Below are positions 4,970-34,602 of a DNA stretch of 35,556 nucleotides, one piece after another. Positions within the stretch are counted from its first letter, which is position 1. Every line of letters starts with the position of its first letter. The DNA is taken from IMG/VR virus record IMGVR_UViG_3300030116_003153, positions 1 through 35,556 of that record; one strand, written 5' to 3'. Both the position numbers and the translations under genes were made by a program. The DNA is from a virus. The notes beneath the pieces are model-generated. The model did no database searches and was not told the DNA's origin. It worked only from the letters and a program-made list of their open reading frames with translations.

Positions 4970-5047
4970 GGTGGCGTAGTTCAGCCTGGTTAGAACGCTT
5001 GCCTGTCACGCAAGAGGTCGAGGGTTCAAATCCCTTCGTCACCGCCA
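4970..5047 (+). tRNA. tRNA-Asp (GTC anticodon)
   Basis: A full cloverleaf can be folded. The acceptor stem GGTGGCG pairs with CGTCACC (one G-U); the D arm is GTTC/GAAC; the anticodon arm CTTGC/GCAAG encloses loop CTGTCAC with anticodon GTC; the variable loop is AGGTC; the T arm GAGGG/CCCTT encloses TTCAAAT. Discriminator G73 and an encoded CCA follow. It is 78 nt long and directly precedes the integrase gene. It may be a working tRNA, the integration core copied from a host tRNA-Asp gene, or both. Confidence 0.95.
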
Positions 5048-5065: not shown

Positions 5066-6244
5066 ATGATAACAGTACAAGAAGTTAAATCACGAAACGT
5101 TTTTCGTGTGCGTGGTCCACAAGGGACAAAATCGTTTAACATTAGTAAGCTTGGCAAACGACTAGCTCGAGTCCAAGCACAGGCTTATGCCGATGAAATC
5201 AATCATGCTATACACACTAAAGCTGTAGGATTCTTTTACAGTGAGTGGACCTTACTACAAGCAGTAGAAGAATTTTATGTAGATTTTGCTAGATTAAAAA
5301 GAGCTAACGGTTCATTAGGTAGATACAAAAATGAACTGAAAAGAATAGTTGGTACAGATGGCAACAAAACACCGTTTTCAGATGTATTGATCAAAACCTT
5401 TAAATTAAAAGATGCAGACAAGATAGTTGATTATTTGTACAGCCAAGATTGGAGCAGCAAAGCTGTCAAACGTACACTTAAAAGTTTGAAGTTTGCATTT
5501 AGATTAGCTGTCAAAAGAGATTGGCTAAAAATAAATCCTATGTCTGAATGGAAATGGGATGCAGGTACTGATGAAGCAGATACAGCTATAAGAGAAGAAG
5601 GTGAAGTTATAATACCTGCAAAATCCGAGGTTGCTAAATTGATACGAGAAACCAAAGATCCAAAATTTAAATTACTATATCAGGTGGCTGCTACAACAGG
5701 ACTAAGACCATCTGAGCTTTGTGGTCTTGCATGGTCTAATATTGATTTTGCAAACAACTTTATTTATGTAAAGCAGCAACGTGACCAGGATAATAATTTA
5801 ACAACACGTCTTAAAACTAAAAACTCTGATAGAAGAATACCTTTAGTCAGAGAAACAAAAGAAGCTTTGCTTAAATATCAATCTTTGCAAACAGTAAGAT
5901 CATGGTTGGGTCACAATGGTGGGCCTGGCATAAAAACAGATTTAGTGTTTGTAACAGTAAATGGCAACAGTTATGCACGTCAAAGAGTGTGGGAAAACTT
6001 CCAAAGACATAAAAGACTAGCTAATGTGGATATTGCTAAAAGCTTGTACACCTTTAGACACTTTTATGCATCTAACCTGATTGATGCTCATAAAAAAGGC
6101 AACATAAGTTTCTTAGAAATATCAAGATACATGGGTCATCGTAGTTATGAGTTTACTGAAACGATCTATGGTCACTTGATACGTGACATGGAAGCTGACC
6201 AACAGGTCGTTGATGATCTTTCACAAACACTGTCTTTTGCCTAA
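5066..6244 (+). CDS. int: Tyrosine site-specific integrase
   Basis: 392 aa. An N-terminal arm-binding-like part (to about residue 60) and a core-binding SAM-like domain (about 60-165) precede the catalytic domain. Active-site residues are readable: Arg in TTGLRPSELCG (about 215), Lys in RLKTKNSDRRIP (about 253), Arg-His in YTFRHFYAS (about 330), His in YMGHRS (about 357) and the nucleophile Tyr in ETIYGHL (about 368). The first His of the usual HxxR box is Tyr here. ATG 5066 is preceded by AAGAAAGAAG. The gene directly follows tRNA-Asp, as expected for a tRNA-targeting integrase, and implies the phage can be temperate. Confidence 0.95.
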   Translation: MITVQEVKSRNVFRVRGPQGTKSFNISKLGKRLARVQAQAYADEINHAIHTKAVGFFYSEWTLLQAVEEFYVDFARLKRANGSLGRYKNELKRIVGTDGNKTPFSDVLIKTFKLKDADKIVDYLYSQDWSSKAVKRTLKSLKFAFRLAVKRDWLKINPMSEWKWDAGTDEADTAIREEGEVIIPAKSEVAKLIRETKDPKFKLLYQVAATTGLRPSELCGLAWSNIDFANNFIYVKQQRDQDNNLTTRLKTKNSDRRIPLVRETKEALLKYQSLQTVRSWLGHNGGPGIKTDLVFVTVNGNSYARQRVWENFQRHKRLANVDIAKSLYTFRHFYASNLIDAHKKGNISFLEISRYMGHRSYEFTETIYGHLIRDMEADQQVVDDLSQTLSFA

Positions 6245-12419: not shown

Positions 12420-13714
12420 TGCATATAAACATCCCTTACGAGCCACGAGAGCTGCAATCGGAAATCCATCAAAACCTATCCAAATATAGATGGGCTTTGC
12501 TTTCGATACATAGACGTGCAGGCAAGTCTGTTTTGTGCATAAATGAGCTAATTAAGCGTGCTATAACAAATTCTAAATGGAATCCTAGATATGCATACAT
12601 CGGCCCAACTTATAAACAAACTAAGTCAATTATTTTTGACTATTTAAAATTTTATGCTGGTGTCATTCCTGGAGTCAAATTTAACGAACAAGAATTAAGT
12701 TGCACGTTTCCCAATGGTGCAAAAATTACACTACTGGGATCAGAAAATCCTGATAGCCTTCGTGGTTCATACTACGATGGTATTATTTGTGATGAGTATG
12801 CACAGGTCAATCCGAGATTGTTTCCTGAGATTATTCGACCTGCACTATCAGACCGTAAAGGTTTTTGTTATCTGGTTGGTACACCCCAGGGCATGAGTAA
12901 TGATTTTTATGCCAAGTACCAGCACGGTCTTAAAAACAAAGATTGGTATGTCAAGGTAGCAAAAGCATCAGAAACAAACATTGTTGACCAAGAAGAACTT
13001 GATGCTGCCCTGGACCTGATGGGCAAAAAGAAATACAGGCAAGAGTTTGAATGTGATTGGGTTGCAGCCTTAGAGGGTGCTATCTATGGAGACATTTTAG
13101 AAAAGATAGAAAACAAGGGCCAGGTAGGACGTGTACCCCACGATCCGACCCACCGTGTATCTACAGCCTGGGATATAGGTATCTCAGACAAAACAGCTAT
13201 AATATTTTTTCAAATAATTAATAGATCAATAAATATTATAGATTATTACGAAAACAGTAACGAGGGACTACCCCACTACATAAATGTTATAAACAACAAG
13301 GAGTACATTTACGAAGATCATTATGGACCTCACGACTTAGAACAGCGTGAGTTTACCAACGGCAAGTCCAGGCGTGAGATTGCTTACGAGCTAGGATTGC
13401 GTTTTAAGATTGTGCCTAAACTTAGTATCGAGGATGGTATCCATTATACACAGCTTTTGCTAAATCGTTGTTGGATTGATGCCGATGCATGTAAAAAATT
13501 GATTGATAGCTTAAGAGGTTATCATCGTAAGTACAATGAGAACTTACAAATCTTTCATTCAAAACCTGTACACGACCACACATCACATGCTTGTGATGCG
13601 TTGCGTTGCTTGTCCGTAGGTCTTGAAGAACTTAAAGGAGATCAGCAAGCTCCACAAAAATTTGCTGACAGTAACTACAACCCATTAGGAAGAAACTATG
13701 AGCAGATTATTTAG
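12419..13714 (+). CDS. Terminase large subunit
   Basis: 431 aa. The ATPase domain has a Walker A-type HRRAGKS at residues 31-37 and a Walker B GIICDEYA at about 121-128. The nuclease domain has acidic residues in TAWDIGISDKTAI (about 251) and near SHACDALRC (about 388-396). The protein pumps DNA into the prohead and cuts it. Its length is normal for a small podovirus. The start is in a TAATG overlap; the 3' end overlaps the next small gene by 17 nt. Confidence 0.93.
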   Translation: MHINIPYEPRELQSEIHQNLSKYRWALLSIHRRAGKSVLCINELIKRAITNSKWNPRYAYIGPTYKQTKSIIFDYLKFYAGVIPGVKFNEQELSCTFPNGAKITLLGSENPDSLRGSYYDGIICDEYAQVNPRLFPEIIRPALSDRKGFCYLVGTPQGMSNDFYAKYQHGLKNKDWYVKVAKASETNIVDQEELDAALDLMGKKKYRQEFECDWVAALEGAIYGDILEKIENKGQVGRVPHDPTHRVSTAWDIGISDKTAIIFFQIINRSINIIDYYENSNEGLPHYINVINNKEYIYEDHYGPHDLEQREFTNGKSRREIAYELGLRFKIVPKLSIEDGIHYTQLLLNRCWIDADACKKLIDSLRGYHRKYNENLQIFHSKPVHDHTSHACDALRCLSVGLEELKGDQQAPQKFADSNYNPLGRNYEQII

Positions 13715-13934
13715 ACCAAAAATTAGTATGCCTGCACCTCCACCAGTTCAACAGCGTGTGGAATACAAGCCACCAACTATGGAGCTGCCATCAGAAAAAG
13801 AAAAGCAACCTGATATTGATACACAAGAAGAAACAATGAAAAGGAAAAAGCTTGGACGTAAACAAACTATAATGACCTCAGCACAAGGTTTGACTACAGA
13901 TGCTGATATTTATACACCAACATTATTGGGATAA
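13698..13934 (+). CDS. Small protein with C-terminal TLLG, copy 1
   Basis: 78 aa. A proline-rich start (MPAPPPVQQRVEYKPPT) and a charged middle lead to a C-terminal block KLGRKQTIMTSAQGL ... YTPTLLG. The same block type ends the protein at 15169 (KGRRNLIATTSQGL ... YKATLLG). The gene overlaps terL by 17 nt. Such proteins occur between terminase and portal in many marine podoviruses and have no assigned function; a virion or assembly role is inferred. Confidence 0.65.
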   Translation: MSRLFRPKISMPAPPPVQQRVEYKPPTMELPSEKEKQPDIDTQEETMKRKKLGRKQTIMTSAQGLTTDADIYTPTLLG

Positions 13935-13938
13935 TATT

Positions 13939-14217
13939 ATGGGAGCAATGGCAGGAAAAGCTATAAAGTTTGCAGAACTTTCAGGCATAATTAAAAAAGT
14001 TGGAGAAGAAAATAGACAAAGAATGTTTAGTGCAGGACAAAAACCAGAAGATTACCAACAAGGGCCAACAATGAGTCAGAACTTCGGTGTAAAAGCCATG
14101 GGTGTTGCATCTCCTAACATGCAAGACCAGTATCAAAGATACTTAGCAGAAGAAGAAGTTAGGAAAAAAAAACGTAAACAATCAGCAGATACTGCTGGTA
14201 CAACTTTATTAGGATAA
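13939..14217 (+). CDS. Small protein with C-terminal TLLG, copy 2
   Basis: 92 aa from ATG 13939, 4 nt after the previous stop; the longer frame from 13900 would run back through the previous gene. It starts MGAMAGKAIKFAELSGIIKK (an amphipathic helix), has a Gln-rich middle and ends RKKKRKQSADTAGTTLLG. Apart from the last residues it is unlike its neighbours, so the TLLG end is the shared part. Confidence 0.6.
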   Translation: MGAMAGKAIKFAELSGIIKKVGEENRQRMFSAGQKPEDYQQGPTMSQNFGVKAMGVASPNMQDQYQRYLAEEEVRKKKRKQSADTAGTTLLG

Positions 14218-14221
14218 AAAT

Positions 14222-14374
14222 ATGTCACTTTATGAAAACATAAACAAAAGAAAAAAGGCAGGTACGTCCAGACCAAAATCTAAATCAACTATTAGTGCAA
14301 AATCTTATGCTGATATGAAAGCAGGTTTTCCTAATTCAAAAAAAAATAAAAAGAAAAAAACATTAATGGGGTAA
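14222..14374 (+). CDS. 50-aa basic protein with C-terminal TLMG
   Basis: Starts 4 nt after the previous stop. It is rich in Lys and Ser with almost no acidic residues, includes ISAKSYADMKAGFPNS, and ends NKKKKTLMG. High charge suggests nucleic-acid contact or an unfolded tail. Support comes from tight spacing on both sides and the shared ending with four neighbouring genes. No family was recognised. Confidence 0.6.
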   Translation: MSLYENINKRKKAGTSRPKSKSTISAKSYADMKAGFPNSKKNKKKKTLMG

Positions 14375-14377
14375 ATT

Positions 14378-14518
14378 ATGGCTTACGGACCAAGTAAAAA
14401 AACAAAAAACAAATCAAACAAAAATCTAGCAGCCATGTACGGTGATAAGAAAAAGATCACTCGTGGTGATATAATCACAGCTGCAAAGAAAAATAAGAAA
14501 AAAACCTTGATGGGTTAA
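14378..14518 (+). CDS. 46-aa basic protein with C-terminal TLMG
   Basis: Starts 3 nt after the previous stop; its own stop overlaps the next ATG (TAATG). MAYGPSKKTKNKSNKNLAAM is followed by KKKITRGDIITAAKKNKK and the end KKTLMG. The codons for the last four residues differ from those of the previous gene (ACC TTG ATG GGT against ACA TTA ATG GGG), so the ending is conserved as protein. Function unknown. Confidence 0.6.
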   Translation: MAYGPSKKTKNKSNKNLAAMYGDKKKITRGDIITAAKKNKKKTLMG

Positions 14519-14775
14519 TGGCGTTAAAAAAACACCAGAGTCCATCAGGAGGTCTAAACGCAGCAGGCAGAAAACATTACGGAGTCAAAGCTCCTGTACG
14601 TAAAGGGACAAACCCAAGACGGGTAAGTTTTGCTGCACGTTTTGCAGGCATGAAAGGACCAATGAAAGATGAAAAAGGCAGACCCACACGCAAAGCTTTA
14701 GCTTTGAAGAAGTGGGGTTTTGGATCAGTTGCAGCTGCAAGAAATTTTGCTAATAGAAACAAAAAGAGTGCCTGA
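14518..14775 (+). CDS. DUF6321-like basic protein
   Basis: 85 aa. SPSGGLNAAGRKHYGVKAPV, NPRRVSFAARFAGMKGPMKD and EKGRPTRKALALKKWGFGS match the conserved line of DUF6321, small basic proteins found in phages of marine bacteria near packaging and portal genes. It is Arg/Lys/Gly-rich, so DNA contact or a virion role is plausible. It lacks the TL(L/M)G end that flanking genes carry. Confidence 0.7.
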   Translation: MALKKHQSPSGGLNAAGRKHYGVKAPVRKGTNPRRVSFAARFAGMKGPMKDEKGRPTRKALALKKWGFGSVAAARNFANRNKKSA

Positions 14776-15181
14776 TTTAGAGTTTACTTTAGAATATCAA
14801 TCTTTGCTTAATTTTTTAATAAAAGAAAAATATAGATACCTGCCTGATCATAAAGACAATCTACGATATGCTTTGATATTTAGAATAGTAAAAGACAACG
14901 CAACACTCGGTTATGTGTGGTTGTATGAACTAGAAGAAGCAGAAAACAAGTTTGTTACGCACATGTGTGTAGCAGAAAAACATAAAGGTCGTGTCTTTAC
15001 CCGACACACTGTAAATAAATTTTATTTAATGAGTCATTATCTTGGAGCTGTAGAGTTACAAACAGATACTATAGATGATGAGCTTGTTAAATTATACAAA
15101 CGAATTGGTTGGTCAGAACAAAATGATCAAACATTATTTATCAAACTACCCTTTGAATGGAGAAAAAAATGGGAGCAGTAA
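14768..15181 (+). CDS. GNAT-like acetyltransferase-fold protein
   Basis: 137 aa from GTG 14768, overlapping the previous stop by 8 nt; the TTG at 14720 is unlikely. YVWLYELEEAENKFVTHMCV, AEKHKGRVFTRHTVNKFYL and ELVKLYKRIGWSEQNDQTLF follow the GNAT layout: central strand, acetyl-CoA loop region and a late helix with the 'Y.r.Gw' motif. The Q/RxxGxG/A acetyl-CoA signature is weak (KHKGRV), so activity is uncertain. A substrate among phage or host proteins is unknown. Confidence 0.55.
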   Translation: MPDLEFTLEYQSLLNFLIKEKYRYLPDHKDNLRYALIFRIVKDNATLGYVWLYELEEAENKFVTHMCVAEKHKGRVFTRHTVNKFYLMSHYLGAVELQTDTIDDELVKLYKRIGWSEQNDQTLFIKLPFEWRKKWEQ

Positions 15182-15474
15182 AAAAAATTATAAGAAAAAT
15201 AATCAAACCACCTTCACCACCACCGCCACCGCCAGAACCAGTAGCACCTCCCCCGCCACGTGTTGCACCAACACCAACACCAGCTCCAGTAGCACAAGCA
15301 CCTGTAGTGACATCTACAGCACCAGCAGCAGCACCAGCTGAACCTACAAAAGCTACTGAGGATATGGCTCAATCAGTTCAACGTAAGAAAAAAGGTAGAA
15401 GAAATTTAATTGCCACAACCAGTCAAGGTTTAGGTGGTGAACCGACAACATACAAAGCAACACTACTAGGTTAA
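15169..15474 (+). CDS. Proline-rich small protein with C-terminal TLLG, copy 5
   Basis: 101 aa. ATG 15169 is preferred over 15157 because GGAG lies 6 nt upstream and related proteins start MG. An amphipathic basic start (MGAVKKIIRKIIK) precedes a Pro/Ala-rich region (residues about 15-60), then KGRRNLIATTSQGL and the end YKATLLG. It ends 1 nt before the portal gene. Possibly a flexible virion component whose C-terminus docks to a head or portal site; not shown by the sequence. Confidence 0.65.
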   Translation: MGAVKKIIRKIIKPPSPPPPPPEPVAPPPPRVAPTPTPAPVAQAPVVTSTAPAAAPAEPTKATEDMAQSVQRKKKGRRNLIATTSQGLGGEPTTYKATLLG

Positions 15475-15475
15475 T

Positions 15476-17068
15476 ATGGAAAACAAACAAGCAGCCATGC
15501 TGGTTGAACGGTTTGCCTCATTGAAAAGTTTGAGATCGAATTGGGAATCCCACTGGCAAGAAATCGGTGACTACATGTTGCCACGTAAGGCTGACATTGT
15601 GCAGCAACGTACTCGTGGTGACAAAAGAACTGAACTTATATTTGACGGCACTGCCTTACATGCATTAGAGCTGTTAGCTTCTAGTTTGCATGGCATGATG
15701 ACTAATGCCTCAACACCATGGTTTACATTAGGCTATAAAGAAAATTCTTTAGCAGAAGATGACGCAGCTCGTGAGTGGCTTGATAGTGTTACTAACGATA
15801 TGTACATAGCTTTCAATCGTTCTAACTTTCAACAAGAAATACAAGAGCTGTATCAAGATTTAATATCATTTGGTACATCAGCTATGTTTGTAGCTTCTGA
15901 TGAAAAAAGCTTAGTGCGTTTTAACACCAGGCATATAAAAGAAATTTACATACAAGAAAACGAAAAAGGTATTGTTGATACAGTTTTTAGAAGTTTTCAT
16001 ATTACAGCTAGGTCAGCTATAAATTTATTTGGTGAAGATAAGGTTAGTAAAAATATTTTAGACAAGGCAAAAAAAGATCCCTACTCAGATGTGTTGTTGT
16101 TACATGCTGTAATGCCAAGAGACAACTATAACACAGGTAAACAAGATTCAATGAACATGCCTTTTAAGTCGTGTTATGTTGATCCAGAAGATGTGCATCT
16201 AATCAATGAAGGTGGCTTCAAAGAATTTCCATACGTTGTACCAAGATACTTGAAAGCATCGTTTGAAACGTATGGTCGATCACCTGCTATGAACGCACTG
16301 CCTGATGTTAAAATGTTAAACAAAATGTCAGAAGTTGCTATCAAAGCTGCACAAAAACAAATTGATCCACCTTTGATGATACCTGATGATGGATTTATGT
16401 TGCCTGTTAGAACTGTACCTGGAGGATTAAATTTTTATCGTGCAGGTAGCCGAGATCGTATTGAGCCTTTATCGACTGGAGCAAACAATCCTATTACCTT
16501 AAACATGATACAAGATAGACAGTTGGCTATACAAAAAACTTTTTATGTTGATCAGTTGTTAATGTCTCAGGGTGGTAACATGACAGCTACAGAGGTTTTA
16601 CAACGAAACGAAGAAAAAATGAGATTGTTAGGCCCAGTATTAGGTCGATTACAATCAGAGTTATTACAGCCATTAATAGAAAGAGTATTTAATATATTGA
16701 TGAGAGCAAACGTTTTCCAACCTGCTCCTGAAATATTACAAGGTATGACTATTGATATTGAATATGTGTCACCACTTGCTAAGGCACAAAAATCTGGTGA
16801 TCTAAATTCTGTAATGCGTGGTGTAGAAATATTTGGATCACTATCACAGTTTGCACCAGTCTTAGATTATTTAGATAGTGACGGATTAGTTAAATACGTA
16901 CAAAAAACTTTAGGACTTCCTGCACGTATAATCCGTTCTGATGTTGAAGTAGCACAAGTTAGACAGCAACGTCAACGTCAAGAAGCAGCGGTCCAACAAC
17001 AACAAGAACAAATGCAACAAGCAGAGGCTGCACAAAAAGTTGCACCTCTAGTCAAAGCTACATCATAG
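15476..17068 (+). CDS. Portal (head-to-tail connecting) protein
   Basis: 530 aa, matching the T7-type head-tail connector family (PF12236): WESHWQEIGDYMLPRKADI near the start, FDGTALHALELLASSLHGMM, YVVPRYLKASFETYGRSPAM, then PDVKMLNKMSEVAIKAAQKQ. A Gln-rich helix ends the protein. It forms the dodecameric ring at one vertex through which DNA enters and leaves. Length is close to T7 gp8 (536 aa). Confidence 0.95.
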   Translation: MENKQAAMLVERFASLKSLRSNWESHWQEIGDYMLPRKADIVQQRTRGDKRTELIFDGTALHALELLASSLHGMMTNASTPWFTLGYKENSLAEDDAAREWLDSVTNDMYIAFNRSNFQQEIQELYQDLISFGTSAMFVASDEKSLVRFNTRHIKEIYIQENEKGIVDTVFRSFHITARSAINLFGEDKVSKNILDKAKKDPYSDVLLLHAVMPRDNYNTGKQDSMNMPFKSCYVDPEDVHLINEGGFKEFPYVVPRYLKASFETYGRSPAMNALPDVKMLNKMSEVAIKAAQKQIDPPLMIPDDGFMLPVRTVPGGLNFYRAGSRDRIEPLSTGANNPITLNMIQDRQLAIQKTFYVDQLLMSQGGNMTATEVLQRNEEKMRLLGPVLGRLQSELLQPLIERVFNILMRANVFQPAPEILQGMTIDIEYVSPLAKAQKSGDLNSVMRGVEIFGSLSQFAPVLDYLDSDGLVKYVQKTLGLPARIIRSDVEVAQVRQQRQRQEAAVQQQQEQMQQAEAAQKVAPLVKATS

Positions 17069-19806: not shown

Positions 19807-20391
19807 ATGGCATCACAAGTAGAAATATGTAACGGAGCTTTGAATCAGCTCGGAGCAACAACAATTTTAAATTTAAGTGAAGATTCTAAAAATGCACGTA
19901 TTCTTAATCAGCGGTACAACGCTGTAAGAGATCGTGTTTTTAGAGAGCATCCTTGGAACTGTTTGACTAAAAGAGCTAAACTTGCACAAGACACGACAGC
20001 TCCAACTTACGAGTTTACTTACGCCTACACGTTGCCGTCAGACAATCTAAGAGTTTTAAAGTTTGCTGATATAGCAACTTCGTACGCAGTAAGTAACGAT
20101 ATTAATTTTAAAATAGAAAATGGAAAATTATTAACAGACTCAGGTGAGGTTTATATTTTATACATAGCTCGTATTACAGATACTTCTGTATATGATACTT
20201 CATTGTCTGAAACATTATCGGCAGCTCTTGCTGCTGATATTGCTTACTCTATAACAGGTTCGACAACTGTTTTAGAATTGATGGAAGCAAAATATAAAGA
20301 CAAACTTAAAGATGCTCGATTTGCAGATGCTACTGAGGGCATGCCAGACGAGATTGACTCAGATTATCCATTTATTGCATCGAGGTATTAA
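19807..20391 (+). CDS. Tail tubular protein A (T7 gp11-like)
   Basis: 194 aa. MASQVEICNGALNQLGATTI, RDRVFREHPWNCLTKRAKLA and TYAYTLPSDNLRVLKFADI are the conserved features of tail tubular protein A, which forms the upper ring between portal and nozzle. The stop overlaps the start of tubular protein B (TAATG), matching the usual pair. Confidence 0.9.
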   Translation: MASQVEICNGALNQLGATTILNLSEDSKNARILNQRYNAVRDRVFREHPWNCLTKRAKLAQDTTAPTYEFTYAYTLPSDNLRVLKFADIATSYAVSNDINFKIENGKLLTDSGEVYILYIARITDTSVYDTSLSETLSAALAADIAYSITGSTTVLELMEAKYKDKLKDARFADATEGMPDEIDSDYPFIASRY

Positions 20392-22919
20392 TGGCCCGTT
20401 CATCTTATGCTTTTACAAGTTTTGTAGCTGGAGAGGTATCACCTAAATTAGATGGACGTACTGATTTAGAAAAATATTTTAAAGCCTGTAAAACTTTAGA
20501 AAACATGATCGTACATGCACATGGCACTGCATCAAGACGACCAGGCACAAGATATATATCAGAAGTAAAAACAAGTTCAGCTAAAACTAGACTGATACCT
20601 TTTGAGTTTTCTACAACACAAACTTACATGTTAGAGTTTGGTAATCAGTACATACGTTTTTATAAAGATAATGGAATTATAACTGAAACAGGTAAAACTA
20701 TTACAGCTATTACAAAAGCTAATCCAGGAGTTGTTACAGCATCATCCCACGGGTATAGTAACGGAGACTACGTTATCATTACTGGCGTTGTTGGCATGAC
20801 AGAATTAAACGGCCGACAATTTAAGGTGGCTAATAAAACAACCAATACATTTGAGCTGCAGGATATGGATGGTGACAATTTTGATACCTCATCACTAACA
20901 ACGTATGCGTCAGCTGGTACTGCTTTCAGAATTTACACAATAGCAACCACTTACGCTACAGCCGATTTGTTTGAATTAAAATTTGCACAATCAGCAGACA
21001 CTATGTACATAACTCATCCAAGCTATGCTATACGAAAAATAACTCGTACTGGTCATACATCGTGGAGTTTATCTACAGTATCTATATCAGGTTCACCTAG
21101 TCCTGCCTTAAACACTGGATCTAATAACTATCCATCATGTGTTACTTTTTTTGAACAACGTTTAGTTTTTGCTAATACAAACGACAATCCGCAAACTTTA
21201 TGGTTTTCTAAATCAGGTGACTATGAAAACTTTACTGCTGGTACAGACGCTGACGATGCTATGATATTTACTATAGCATCAAACCAGGTAAACGCTATTC
21301 GTTACTTGTCTGCCTCCAGGTCATTACTTGTCGGGACAGTTGGTGGTGAGTTCTTAGTAACTGGTTCTGATACTGTTGATGGTTTGTCACCAACAAATAT
21401 AAATATTCGTAAACAATCAACGTATGGGTCTGCAAACAAAGATGCAATATCTGTTGGCAATGTTACTTTGTTTTTACAACGTGCAAAAAGAAAAGTAAGA
21501 GAGCTGGTCTACAATTATGACAGTGATAACTATGTAGCACCTGATCTAACAATTCTATCAGAACATATAAGTAAAAGCACAATCGTAGATATGGCATATC
21601 AGCAAGAGCCTGATAGTATTTTATGGGCCTGTCGTGATGACGGCATATTAGTTGGCATGACTTACCAGCGTACTGAAAATGTAGTTGCCTGGCATAGACA
21701 CATTATTGGTGGTAAATCTGATACAGGCAAATCAGTAGTGACTGACAAATTAAGTTTTTCTGCATCGTCAACGACCGTATCAACAACTAACAATACAATA
21801 ACGTTATCATCACACGGAATGTCAACTGGTGATGTTGTATCTTATAATGCTGACTCGAATGATATTGGTGGATTAAAACAAGGTATATTTTATTTTGTTA
21901 TTGCTACCGACAGCAACACAATAAAATTAGCTTTGACAGCAAGTGATGCAACAGCAGGTACAGCTGTATCATTAACGTCTGCTCCTGGCACTGCAACGAC
22001 ACAATATATTTATAAAGGTGTAAATGTAAGAAATGGCACTTTTTATGTAAGTAGTCACGGCTTTGGTAATGATACTTTTTTATATTATTATCCACCCAAC
22101 GAATCTGACGCATTGGGTGGCATATCCATAAATACAAAATATTATGTTGACGTTATAACTGACAATACATTTAAAATATCAACAAAAAAAGATTTAAGTT
22201 CTTACGCAAGTATTACAAGTGTCAGCACAACAGCTGCCACTCATAAATGGTTGACACATGCAAAGGTAGAATCTGTTGCAGTTATACCCACTGACGAAAA
22301 CGAAGATCAACTTTATATGATTGTAAATCGTTTTATTAATGGTTCGACACGCAGGTATGTAGAATATCTAACACCGATAGATTATGGTGACAGTCAAATG
22401 GATGCATTTTATGTTGACAGTGGCCTAACGTACTCTGGTGATGCTGATGCTACAATATCAGGTGTAGATCATTTAGAGGGTGAGGTTGTAAATATTTTAG
22501 TTAACGGTGCAACACACGTAAATAAAACAGTTAGCTCTGGTAACGTTACACTTAATACAGCTGCTGAAAAAGCTACCATGGGTTTAAATTACGAGTCTAT
22601 TTTACAAACAATGAGATTAGAAGCTGGCTCAGATGATGGTGCAGCTCAGGGTAAAATAAAAAGAATACACGATGTAACTATAAGATTAGAAAGATCATTA
22701 GGTTGTGAAGTTGGTGGTGATCTTGACAATATGGAAACTATACCATTTCGTGATTCATCAATGTTGATGGGCCGAGCAGTTGGATTATTTACAGGTGATA
22801 AAGATGCAGAGTTTCGTGGTGATTATAACAAAGATGGTTTTGTTGTAATACGACAAGCATCACCGTTACCTTTAAATGTCGTAGCTATTTATGCACGTTC
22901 AAACACATTTGATGGATAA
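20391..22919 (+). CDS. Tail tubular protein B (T7 gp12-like nozzle)
   Basis: 842 aa. The start FTSFVAGEVSPKLDGRTDLE, KYFKACKTLENMIVHAHGTA and SRRPGTRYISEVK are diagnostic of podovirus tubular protein B / stabilisation-type proteins, and VTFFEQRLVFANTNDNPQTL recurs in the family. Two Ser/Thr-rich inserts with SSHGYSNGDYV and LSSHGMSTGDVV resemble each other and may be repeated surface domains. It forms the tail nozzle. Confidence 0.92.
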   Translation: MARSSYAFTSFVAGEVSPKLDGRTDLEKYFKACKTLENMIVHAHGTASRRPGTRYISEVKTSSAKTRLIPFEFSTTQTYMLEFGNQYIRFYKDNGIITETGKTITAITKANPGVVTASSHGYSNGDYVIITGVVGMTELNGRQFKVANKTTNTFELQDMDGDNFDTSSLTTYASAGTAFRIYTIATTYATADLFELKFAQSADTMYITHPSYAIRKITRTGHTSWSLSTVSISGSPSPALNTGSNNYPSCVTFFEQRLVFANTNDNPQTLWFSKSGDYENFTAGTDADDAMIFTIASNQVNAIRYLSASRSLLVGTVGGEFLVTGSDTVDGLSPTNINIRKQSTYGSANKDAISVGNVTLFLQRAKRKVRELVYNYDSDNYVAPDLTILSEHISKSTIVDMAYQQEPDSILWACRDDGILVGMTYQRTENVVAWHRHIIGGKSDTGKSVVTDKLSFSASSTTVSTTNNTITLSSHGMSTGDVVSYNADSNDIGGLKQGIFYFVIATDSNTIKLALTASDATAGTAVSLTSAPGTATTQYIYKGVNVRNGTFYVSSHGFGNDTFLYYYPPNESDALGGISINTKYYVDVITDNTFKISTKKDLSSYASITSVSTTAATHKWLTHAKVESVAVIPTDENEDQLYMIVNRFINGSTRRYVEYLTPIDYGDSQMDAFYVDSGLTYSGDADATISGVDHLEGEVVNILVNGATHVNKTVSSGNVTLNTAAEKATMGLNYESILQTMRLEAGSDDGAAQGKIKRIHDVTIRLERSLGCEVGGDLDNMETIPFRDSSMLMGRAVGLFTGDKDAEFRGDYNKDGFVVIRQASPLPLNVVAIYARSNTFDG

Positions 22920-32400: not shown

Positions 32401-32776
32401 ACAGTTTGGTTTGACTATGCCATTAGAAGATTATTTAGGTATGGTGATGAATAGCTTGTCTTATCAAGAGCCTCTAGCCTCTAAATCGTTTGAGGCCTGG
32501 CAGCCTAATTTTAATTATAGAAATGAGGTTGCATCTGCTCCTGATGAATACCGAAAATATGTTTTAGAAACAGCTTTATTAAAATATAAAAAAGCTGCAC
32601 AAATAGCTTTTTATCAAAACGAAGTTTTCAATGGAAGTGAATTAGCAAAAGCATTACAGGAGTATGCTATGGTTTCACAATTTAACTTTCCTACTTACAC
32701 AAAAGATGATGGAACAGAAGTAAGTAAAAATTTTACAAAACAAATTAATGCATTTGAAAGGGATATAAACAGATGA
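29432..32776 (+). CDS. Giant internal virion/ejection protein (gp16-like position)
   Basis: 1114 aa. The first 130 residues are Glu/Pro/Ala-rich and likely flexible. A helical block follows (REGLMKEAAIRNYFMGARSE, then VGRTLQIFKQLKKTL), then FKTVYYASMLSNPATQMVNL and LGNLGF, and later long helical stretches with several hydrophobic segments (around GLLGGDEFF and LMVWHMLEDGHMIGA). The pattern fits internal core proteins of marine podoviruses that enter the cell with DNA. No catalytic motif was found. The end overlaps the fibre gene by 4 nt (ATGA). Confidence 0.72.
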   Translation: MVIKAKIVKPIVEATKAVDEVAKSALGPAYKEAIEKAPAVKEAVETERQAIEETVAAEIIKKTEEQVQPQIEPEVTPTAEPETVPSPVVNPREETKIDEISAEPVASQTSLEPAPTIVADIKKQVEAAANQPKVISQMQFDSAKELDTFLQKNAGININKPGPVSNVETDREAVKMLADGMDVPATVLAQNGILNAAQVRAAAEIMKAIQDENYRLSLLLEDPAKRTPALELQLREGLMKEAAIRNYFMGARSEVGRTLQIFKQLKKTLEADTSLYTSNRIGQEFGGETGNISKGYINAYNNSKTQPGNRFAETQKFAEASYGQRLWAGFKTVYYASMLSNPATQMVNLLGNLGFQSISPIEYTIAGLINTIEKKTLGQVNNLLALTNMPGKKLIGGMLKEMEGSIQAREGATRLYGMVSAIPAAFRVAYHAMKTGERSGSGRSRIGLDESEFIMRPPVQKSEMDAFTGDKLLPERVKGLPGSNVVSMIIDAIGKVLNIPGMGLLGGDEFFKTIARHAELHSLAAREMSNVLEQGGSKEQAIEKAAFVLANPNAKFDKDLDEAADFFTFQSMLDPAGQSTKGIQRIPGMILVVPFFDTIWNIMKVTGTYTPGVNLVPLAIEESKFLKDSLISAYPEYYASWQRSKRDPEQLGKLKARVLMSSAVGLMVWHMLEDGHMIGAAPRDPAERTAFYDAGKKPFSFVFKDGDWEGPKFDENGVPNGPLVYRSFARIEPFSGALGITAAAWENIVYYSKQDPSGYMVKYIPMAYAAAVQEYATDQPFLKGIATLSNLFTGPPRTRYQDDPVSIFDRDFGEIIGNPINAIMGAGVTKSILNSLDPELKVSDPDYDQDLEIWSEPPSAENNFQGTLNPEFGKFNPNSAYNQFDRIIFNAFKVYNKDVPKRIDLFGKTITKDSYRGKWNNVRNVLLPMPIYDAEQPDPVRLELLRLHATIGWNGMVTDKNATLFSTIRLNQSQTINFYSMQANNNGELAQFGLTMPLEDYLGMVMNSLSYQEPLASKSFEAWQPNFNYRNEVASAPDEYRKYVLETALLKYKKAAQIAFYQNEVFNGSELAKALQEYAMVSQFNFPTYTKDDGTEVSKNFTKQINAFERDINR

Positions 32777-34602
32777 CAATAAGCACAACTACAGTATCAC
32801 AAAGTTATAGTGGAGATGGCAGCACTACTGCATTTACGTATTCATTTCCTATAAACTCTACATCAGAAATAAAAGTTATTGAACGTTCTGCATTAGGTAC
32901 TGAAACTGTAAAAAGTGAAGGCACAGGTTCTACTAATTATGGTATCGTAGATAACGGAGCATCAGGCGGTACTGTAACTATGGTTACTGCTCCTGCTTCT
33001 GGCACAACTTTAGTTCTTATTCGTGATACTAGCCTTACACAAGGCACTGACTATGTAGAAAATGATCCCTTCCCTGCTGAGTCACACGAGTCTGCATTAG
33101 ACAAAGTGCAAATGCAAATACAAGAGATTCAAGAAGAAGTTGATCGTAGTATAAAATTGTCTCGTACAAATACGATGACTTCAACACAGTTTACTGAAAA
33201 TGCTGCAAGTCGTGCATCTAAGGTTTTATCTTTTGACAGCTCAGGTGAGTTGTCAGTTACAAATGAATTAGGTAATTTTAGAGGTAACTGGGCTACATCA
33301 ACAGCCTTTGTGTTGCGTGATATTGTTGTGCAAAATTCAACATCCGATGGCACAACTTATAAAAACGTTTACATTTGTACCACAGCTCACACAAGCACAG
33401 GTTCATACCTTACACAAAATGATACATCTAACTGGGGTCTTTTAGTAGAAGTAGCTGCCTTTGATACCCTAGCTGAATTAGGTGATACAAACATTTCAAG
33501 TTTGTCGTCTGGTCATGTTCTTGTTTACGATGGCACAGATACCTTTGACAACGTAGCCATTAGTGGTGATGCAACTCTTGCTGCAAACGGAGCATTAACG
33601 ATTGCTAGTGGTGCTGTTGAAACTTCAATGATTGCAGCTGATGCTATCACAGGAGCTAAGATTGCAGATGATGCAATAAATTCTGAACACTATACAGACG
33701 GTAGTATTGATACAGCTCATATTGCTGACTTAAATGTAACTACAGCAAAGATTGCAGCTGATGCTATTACATCAGCAAAAATTGCTGATGACGCAATCAA
33801 CAGTGAACATTATACAGACGGGTCAATAGATACGGCCCACATAGCTGATTTACAAGTGACTACAGCTAAAATAGCTGCTGACGCAATCACCGGTGCAAAG
33901 ATAGCTGATGATGCCATAAATAGTGAACATTATACTGATGGCTCAATCGACACAGCTCATATTGCAGACTCACAAGTCACAACAGCAAAGATTGCAGCTG
34001 ATGCAATAACTGGAGCAAAGATAGCTGACGATGCTATTAATAGTGAGCATTATACTGATGGTAGTATTGATACAGCACATATTGCAGATGACCAAGTTAC
34101 CCAAGCCAAAATTGCAGACGATGCCGTTGGTGCTGACCAGTTAGCAGCCAGTGCTGTTGTTACAGCATCTATAGTAGATGATAATGTTACTCAGGCAAAA
34201 ATTGCAGATGATGCAGTTGGTGCAGATCAACTAGCAGCAAGTGCTGTAGTTACTGCTTCTATTGTTGACGATGCAGTCACTCAAGCCAAGATAGCAGATG
34301 ATGCAGTTGGTGCAGATCAATTAGCTGCTAATGCAGTTGTCAATGCAAGTGTAGCGTCTGGTGCTGCAATAGCTGACAGTAAGTTAGCAACAATATCTAC
34401 TGCAGACAAAGTAAGTATAGCAGCTCTTGATATAGATGGAGCAACAGAATTAGGTGCTGACATTGTAGATGCAGACGTATTTATAATTGACGATGGTGCA
34501 GGAGGCACAAATAGAAAAGTCCTGGCATCAAGAATTAAATCATACGCAGCAAGCAGCGGAGCTACAGCAGGCTTTGCAGTTGCTATGGCAATAGCTTTAT
34601 AA
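32773..34602 (+). CDS. Tail fibre protein with T7 gp17-like N-terminus and tandem repeats
   Basis: 609 aa. Residues 1-140 match the T7 tail-fibre N-terminal domain (PF03906) that docks on the tail: SYSGDGSTTAFTYSFPINST, DTSLTQGTDYVENDPFPAES and ESALDKVQMQIQEIQEEVDR. After a linker, residues about 288-447 are four 40-aa repeats (AADAITGAKIADDAINSEHY, TDGSIDTAHIAD...), and 448-527 are 30-aa repeats (DDAVGADQLAASAVVTASIV...). These likely form a long trimeric shaft. No receptor-binding tip is evident here, so tip proteins from following genes may attach to it. Confidence 0.9.
   Translation: MTISTTTVSQSYSGDGSTTAFTYSFPINSTSEIKVIERSALGTETVKSEGTGSTNYGIVDNGASGGTVTMVTAPASGTTLVLIRDTSLTQGTDYVENDPFPAESHESALDKVQMQIQEIQEEVDRSIKLSRTNTMTSTQFTENAASRASKVLSFDSSGELSVTNELGNFRGNWATSTAFVLRDIVVQNSTSDGTTYKNVYICTTAHTSTGSYLTQNDTSNWGLLVEVAAFDTLAELGDTNISSLSSGHVLVYDGTDTFDNVAISGDATLAANGALTIASGAVETSMIAADAITGAKIADDAINSEHYTDGSIDTAHIADLNVTTAKIAADAITSAKIADDAINSEHYTDGSIDTAHIADLQVTTAKIAADAITGAKIADDAINSEHYTDGSIDTAHIADSQVTTAKIAADAITGAKIADDAINSEHYTDGSIDTAHIADDQVTQAKIADDAVGADQLAASAVVTASIVDDNVTQAKIADDAVGADQLAASAVVTASIVDDAVTQAKIADDAVGADQLAANAVVNASVASGAAIADSKLATISTADKVSIAALDIDGATELGADIVDADVFIIDDGAGGTNRKVLASRIKSYAASSGATAGFAVAMAIAL
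33634..34113 (+). repeat. Four 120-bp tandem repeats in fibre gene
   Basis: Four in-frame units of 40 codons start at 33634, 33754, 33874 and 33994. The protein is nearly identical between units, but codons differ widely, for example Ser in NSEHY is TCT in unit 1 and AGT in later units. The last unit ends ADDQVTQAKI and leads into the next repeat set. Confidence 0.9.
34114..34353 (+). repeat. 90-bp tandem repeats in fibre gene
   Basis: Two full units of 30 codons (34114-34203 and 34204-34293) and a partial third (34294-34353) encode DDAVGADQLAASAVVTASIV and DDNVTQAKIA. They share the QAKIADDA word with the 120-bp set, so both may come from one ancestral unit. Confidence 0.88.

Follow-up and report, generated by a model that had tools for sequence, protein, structure and literature searches.

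In the T7 virion, the small protein gp7.3 is present in six copies, each with a C-terminal loop (residues 84–98, KKSLSVARSSGGGIN) anchored to two adjacent nozzle subunits; K84 and K85 touch the DNA end and the basic N-terminus has been assigned to the channel (PMC11784390). Residues 2–15 of a second small protein, gp6.7, surround the portal barrel (PMC11784390). Here we analyzed small genes that lie between the large terminase gene (terL) and the portal gene of another virus and that end in the tetrapeptide TL[LM]G. The window, that is, the whole stretch of DNA studied, is a virus record of 35,556 bases (IMGVR_UViG_3300030116_003153) of the HTVC010P kind. Pelagiphages of this type occur in high abundance in the ocean. 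The window portal (PF12236) is 59–64% identical to those of Pelagibacter phages, and Pfam and PHROG matches also identify terminase, adaptor, nozzle, capsid and a gp14-like protein.

The first-pass annotation of this DNA reported that TL[LM]G closes five of the seven small genes between the end of terL (13714) and the start of the portal gene (15476), and our analysis confirmed this count. The five tagged genes, the long C-terminal block carried by two of them, and the portal are as follows:

13698..13934, + strand: gene 1, 78 aa; ends YTPTLLG; N-terminus LFRPKISMP, then a linker and the long C-terminal block RKKLGRKQTIMTSAQGL...TPTLLG
13830..13931, + strand: long C-terminal block (candidate anchor) of gene 1, found with the A2 profile
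13939..14217, + strand: gene 2, 92 aa; amphipathic/basic body; short ending SADTAGTTLLG; likely start 13939 rather than 13900
14222..14374, + strand: gene 3, 50 aa; Lys-rich body (PHROG 25774); ends KKKKTLMG
14378..14518, + strand: gene 4, 46 aa; Lys-rich; ends NKKKTLMG
15169..15474 (or from 15157), + strand: last gene, 101 aa; ends YKATLLG; N-terminus MGAVKKIIRKIIK, then a Pro/Ala linker and the long C-terminal block RKKKGRRNLIATTSQGLGG...KATLLG
15373..15471, + strand: long C-terminal block (candidate anchor) of the last gene, found with the A2 profile
15476..17068, + strand: portal, epsilon15-type; PF12236, Pfam E 5.8e-151

From the amino-acid composition of the window, a fraction of 6e-5 of C-termini would be expected to read [TS]L[LM]G, and five out of seven would arise by chance with a probability of about 1.7e-20. 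The motif is real: no other listed gene of the window carries it, and it matches only 2 of 2984 open reading frames (ORFs) on the opposite strand. In related phages, where genes were picked by position and not by their ending, [TS]L[LM]G is found on 64 of the 76 genes that end at the portal start and on 61 of the 64 that follow terL directly, so the ending is kept by position. Most of the exceptions end TLLS or SLLS, and the corresponding genes of a sister lineage end SLLGMS, SMLGMS or SILGMV, a variant of the same ending. Most of 80 related loci have one to six tagged genes before the portal.

The codons that the first-pass annotation gave for the five endings are correct, and its claim that selection acts on the protein rather than on a DNA or RNA site is borne out. 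Across tagged endings, Ser is encoded by both AGT and TCN, Gly by all four of its codons and Leu by five. Sequences for this codon table were picked by their ending, which fixes the L and G columns by construction; it is the range of codons used and the mixture of AGT and TCN that carry information. A constraint on the nucleic acid would hold if the final GGN codon and the stop formed the Shine-Dalgarno site of the next gene. Indeed, the next start lies within −1 to +4 nt of the stop for most tagged genes, and TTA-GGA or CTA-GGT yields a correctly placed AGGA or AGGT. However, neither T-L-L nor the first block 15–20 residues upstream is explained in this way, Gly is seldom the last residue of the other closely packed window genes, and about half of the endings have a further residue after the Gly. 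We regard this explanation as very unlikely.

The Gly is followed by 0–2 residues in most cases (1–2 in 71 of 137 unique endings) and by more in the tagged protein of phage Baldr (...SSLLGGKKV). This tolerance puts the recognised element near the C-terminus rather than at it, unlike PDZ ligands or C-degrons, which need the extreme C-terminus. Reading of the ending by a host protease, as a degron or anti-degron, would fit with the degradation of T7 gp6.7 and gp7.3 after ejection (PMC11784390). The extra residues are unlike typical free-C-terminus degrons and phages whose hosts differ widely retain the motif, which makes this reading extremely improbable.

The ending comes in two forms: a long C-terminal block in gene 1 and the last gene, and the last residues only in genes 2, 3 and 4. 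The long block spans about 35 residues (RKKKGRxSTILTGxxGL…TLLG). Gene 1 and the last gene have about 44 C-terminal columns in common (hhalign 98.6%, E 1e-15). A2, our profile of the long block, hits exactly two places in the window, in gene 1 (E 2.5e-17) and in the last gene (E 3.7e-15). Genomes of relatives have one or two hits each, which lie next to the portal in the genomes that were read. The block is present in epsilon15 gp3 (...GRSSTLLTGAQGDTSTANTSGKTLLGQ), in BPP-1 Bbp22 (...GTMLTGPQGVDQSALTLGKSTLLGQ) and in phages of Pseudomonas, Caulobacter, Limnohabitans, Klebsiella and Vibrio, and the ending was also found within a few genes upstream of the portal in AF, Shamal, Jess A, DC33 and others. 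The motif is broadly conserved in epsilon15-type podoviruses. PHROG 831, the family of epsilon15 gp3 and its relatives, has the same C-terminal block and gene position as the window genes; its members exclude the short-ending proteins of the window. Gene 1 matches it over residues 2–78 of 78 (E 2.7e-10). The last gene has no match to it below E 1, its positional counterpart in HTVC010P does (E 3.4e-19), and both tagged proteins of HTVC010P match this family.

One related locus (L331, G033:C1, positions 1439–1633) encodes a small protein in which TLMG occurs twice (QTTLMGTPRNTDVSAIRKNTLMGV), as though both blocks were copies of a single element. In Xanthomonas phage CP2 (L090, 3568–3760), the start of the annotated portal ORF overlaps a small, unannotated ORF in another frame that ends ...STILAGNTDPSATPTAPVKTALGV. 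CP2 had seemed to be a motif-poor phage, a reading set aside in view of the tag-like ending of this ORF. The tagged small-gene class is easily missed in annotation.

The short form is carried by diverse bodies. Relatives in a position similar to that of gene 2 end KKLTSVADTTGAGSTLLG, and further bodies in relatives, including an EF-hand-like one, bear the short ending. Gene 3 matches PHROG 25774 (1.4e-21, residues 1–41, the profile having 42 positions), and its family, here called 14222, is present in HTVC019P, Syn5, P60 and others, including untagged homologues in marine phages. No match to gene 4 was found among annotated phages. After de-duplication, the 14222 family carries the tag in 7 of 13 cases that precede an epsilon15-type portal and in 0 of 67 elsewhere; for a second family, LYANIH, the counts are 10 of 10 and 0 of 77, one untagged case (L244) ending in the near variant TLIG. 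Fisher tests of tag against portal context gave 5.4e-7 for the 14222 family and 2.5e-13 for LYANIH, values that overstate independence as the cases are related by descent. Two body families that are untagged elsewhere and tagged only upstream of an epsilon15-type portal indicate that the ending is an add-on. The motif is modular, and the transferable part of the proposed docking tag stands, while the need for a free C-terminus does not. Of 37 records with the 14222 family, 9 have a strong match to the epsilon15-type portal, and 8 of these contain the block; none of the other 28 does.

The five proteins had been called unrelated. Their bodies differ, but the C-terminal part of gene 1 and the last gene is common by descent; the other three share the last residues alone. 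Ordinary descent, in which a 3' gene end was recombined or duplicated and then kept by inertia with no common function, would explain these common columns as well as the NKKKTLMG tail that genes 3 and 4 share with similar DNA. Continuing selection is nevertheless needed to keep the residues while codons vary, with Ser drawn from both codon families, and to conserve them across very divergent phages and hosts. We consider descent by itself an improbable account.

The closest characterised parallel to the last gene is T7 gp7.3. Both are small and appear to follow one plan, with a basic MGxxVKK N-terminus, a variable Ala/Pro linker and a conserved basic-Gly C-terminus. The last gene (ending at 15474) lies directly upstream of the portal, as gp7.3 lies upstream of its portal, although gene 7.7 intervenes in T7. 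They differ in that gp7.3 ends GGGINI and lacks TLLG. Aligned over their full length, the last-gene and gp7.3 families are collinear with an hhalign score of 31.3 (regional shuffles: mean 12.3, maximum 26.2), above all global and regional column shuffles, at a probability of 66–74%. The C-terminus alone exceeded all 200 shuffles and the N-terminus alone was reached by 3 of 200. In this alignment, ETAQAVQRKKKGRKSLINTSSTGLGG of last-gene relatives falls on DDAQTESGKKKARAGGKKSLSVARSSGGGLNI of gp7.3. We propose that the last gene works like gp7.3, and not that it is a gp7.3, because direct family searches leave it outside that family.

Gene 1 in turn resembles T7 gp6.7 (PHROG 1391). Each is the first of the small genes and has an N-terminal (C)FxPKIxxP segment, LFRPKISMP in gene 1 and CFSPKIKTPK in loop I of gp6.7. 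The family comparison scored 20.4 (shuffle maximum 18.0, 0 of 60). This likeness is limited to about 12 N-terminal columns and gp6.7 has no TLLG. In T7 relatives, both gp6.7 and gp7.3 hold a GGKKSL block (GGKKSLKV in gp6.7), so two different virion proteins may long have had a block in common.

Two untagged genes separate gene 4 from the last gene:

14518..14775, + strand: untagged basic protein, DUF6321; Pfam PF19846, E 6.7e-18
about 14768..15181, + strand: untagged GNAT-like acetyltransferase; weak Pfam GNAT match, E 0.048

The order GNAT-like gene, small protein, portal is the same in the window, phiKMV and SP6. The small protein of phiKMV, gp29 (PHROG 3112/4893), is an annotated virion structural protein with a MGKKVKK N-terminus and an Arg-rich C-terminus; unlike the tagged proteins it ends SQTLGINY, without the second block. 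It matches phrog_4893 (1.8e-8), which also matches the tagged proteins of AF (7.6e-17) and Shamal (8.5e-20), and both of these match phrog_831 too. This chain of profile matches from phiKMV gp29 through PHROG 4893 to PHROG 831 supports the link to gp7.3.

Taking these likenesses together, the tagged proteins may be minor virion proteins similar to gp7.3 and gp6.7, held in the portal-adaptor-nozzle channel of the short tail by a common module; we judge the chances of this to be evenly balanced. The window encodes the two other components of such a channel:

19807..20391, + strand: tail adaptor, T7 gp11-type; PHROG 394 'tail protein', E 1.2e-51; PHROG 9239 'tail tubular protein'
20391..22919, + strand: tail nozzle, T7 gp12-type; PHROG 376, E 7.8e-203; PDB 8ck1 'Tail Nozzle', E 2.2e-100

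Under this proposal, each protein would be small, probably mostly unstructured, with one docking module at or near its C-terminus. The full module would consist of the basic-Gly block (RKKKGRxSTILTGxxGL) and the final [TS]L[LM][GS]; by relation to gp7.3, we infer that it anchors each protein inside the channel, with the nozzle as the putative docking partner, the adaptor possibly part of the site and the basic residues in contact with the DNA end. The N-termini differ, gene 1 having a gp6.7-like PKIxMP (on the portal barrel in T7) and the last gene a gp7.3-like MGxVKKIIKK. TLLG would be the second half of the channel anchor, specific to the epsilon15-type tail. Three or more additional small basic proteins of the clade would have acquired the final residues of the module, so that several proteins may use equivalent sites. 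More tentatively, the module is possibly a reusable docking address, recognised at a repeated site of the portal-tail channel and captured by several unrelated small basic proteins, through which a variable protein set is loaded at the DNA end. In that case xTILTG and xTLLG may each be a half-site, the two binding neighbouring subunits.

Several results weigh against this channel proposal. TLLG is absent from T7, SP6, P-SSP7, HTVC019P and phiKMV, so the gp7.3 parallel covers the first block only, and A2 finds nothing in T7. The last gene scores E 0.19 against the gp7.3 family profile (phrog_1320), which is not significant, and AF reaches only 0.0088 against the gp7.3 family. All similarity sits in short, low-complexity proteins, whose profile scores are less reliable than usual. 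Co-occurrence does not tell the partner apart, since portal, adaptor and nozzle come as a set. A2 likewise has no match in ZP6, VP2, Vibrio 237E40 and Rhodobacteraceae MD07 despite their epsilon15-type portals. No chain among solved structures has the long block, and the HTVC010P record marks the capsid protein alone as structural in the region of the tagged genes. We also considered divergence of portal versus nozzle as a guide to the partner: ZP6, VP2 and 237E40 have divergent nozzles, but MD07 is motif-less without an unusually divergent one, a mixed picture that singles out no partner.

Docking on portal, scaffold or another head component had been suggested first. As a prohead cargo signal, the ending would get tagged proteins packaged by binding the portal, the scaffold or the inside of the capsid while the head assembles, and would not act in the tail channel. 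Its co-occurrence with the portal type and its presence on many different bodies agree with this, as do the likeness of the gene 1 N-terminus to the portal-binding segment of gp6.7 and the hydrophobic N-terminus and coiled-coil-like body of Bbp22, DC33 and zth2-2, which resemble ejection proteins. However, the large putative internal virion proteins of the window lack the ending, and the closest relative that has been characterised is held by the nozzle rather than in the head. We find this reading doubtful; the gp7.3 parallel points to the nozzle/adaptor channel and away from scaffold and capsid, while the portal may still take part.

The motif extends to epsilon15 and BPP-1, two well-studied phages, and we found no assigned role for gp3 and Bbp22. 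The earlier statement that no function is assigned holds for PHROG 831 itself; a related class has a known place in T7. If true, the channel proposal would locate a family that has had no known function and give it a role that can be tested, linked to T7 gp6.7 and gp7.3. It would also offer a sequence handle for small channel-bound or ejected proteins missed by annotation and a view of a docking tag spreading onto unrelated proteins. Among solved structures, gene 1 had no match and the last gene only a low-complexity one, and we found no papers naming 8CK0, 8CK1 or 9EFK. Papers on BPP-1, P-SCSP1u, Peru-2, PhiGT1 and JG068 name no function for the tagged family in the passages that were searched; the one on Peru-2 mentions small ORFs without an assignment upstream of the portal.

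A GNAT-like gene occupies a place similar to that at 14768–15181, before a small protein and the portal, in phiKMV, SP6, AF, BPP-1 (Bbp24, GNAT match E 6.5e-07) and Baldr. T7 gp7 weakly touches the phiKMV gp28 family (phrog_3986, E 0.025). The GNAT-like gene of the window was rejected as a counterpart of T7 gp7, its comparison score not being above shuffles.

Residues 99–164 of the tail nozzle match PDB chains of ubiquitin-activating enzyme E1 (E 3.5e-05) and are probably an inserted domain resembling part of E1. A complete tRNA-Asp gene (4970–5047) lies directly upstream of a 392-aa integrase-like ORF (5066–6244), a layout suggestive of a temperate phage, with a tRNA as its possible integration site. 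The tail protein at 32773–34602 contains several near-identical repeats of DDAINSEHYTDGSIDTAHIAD.

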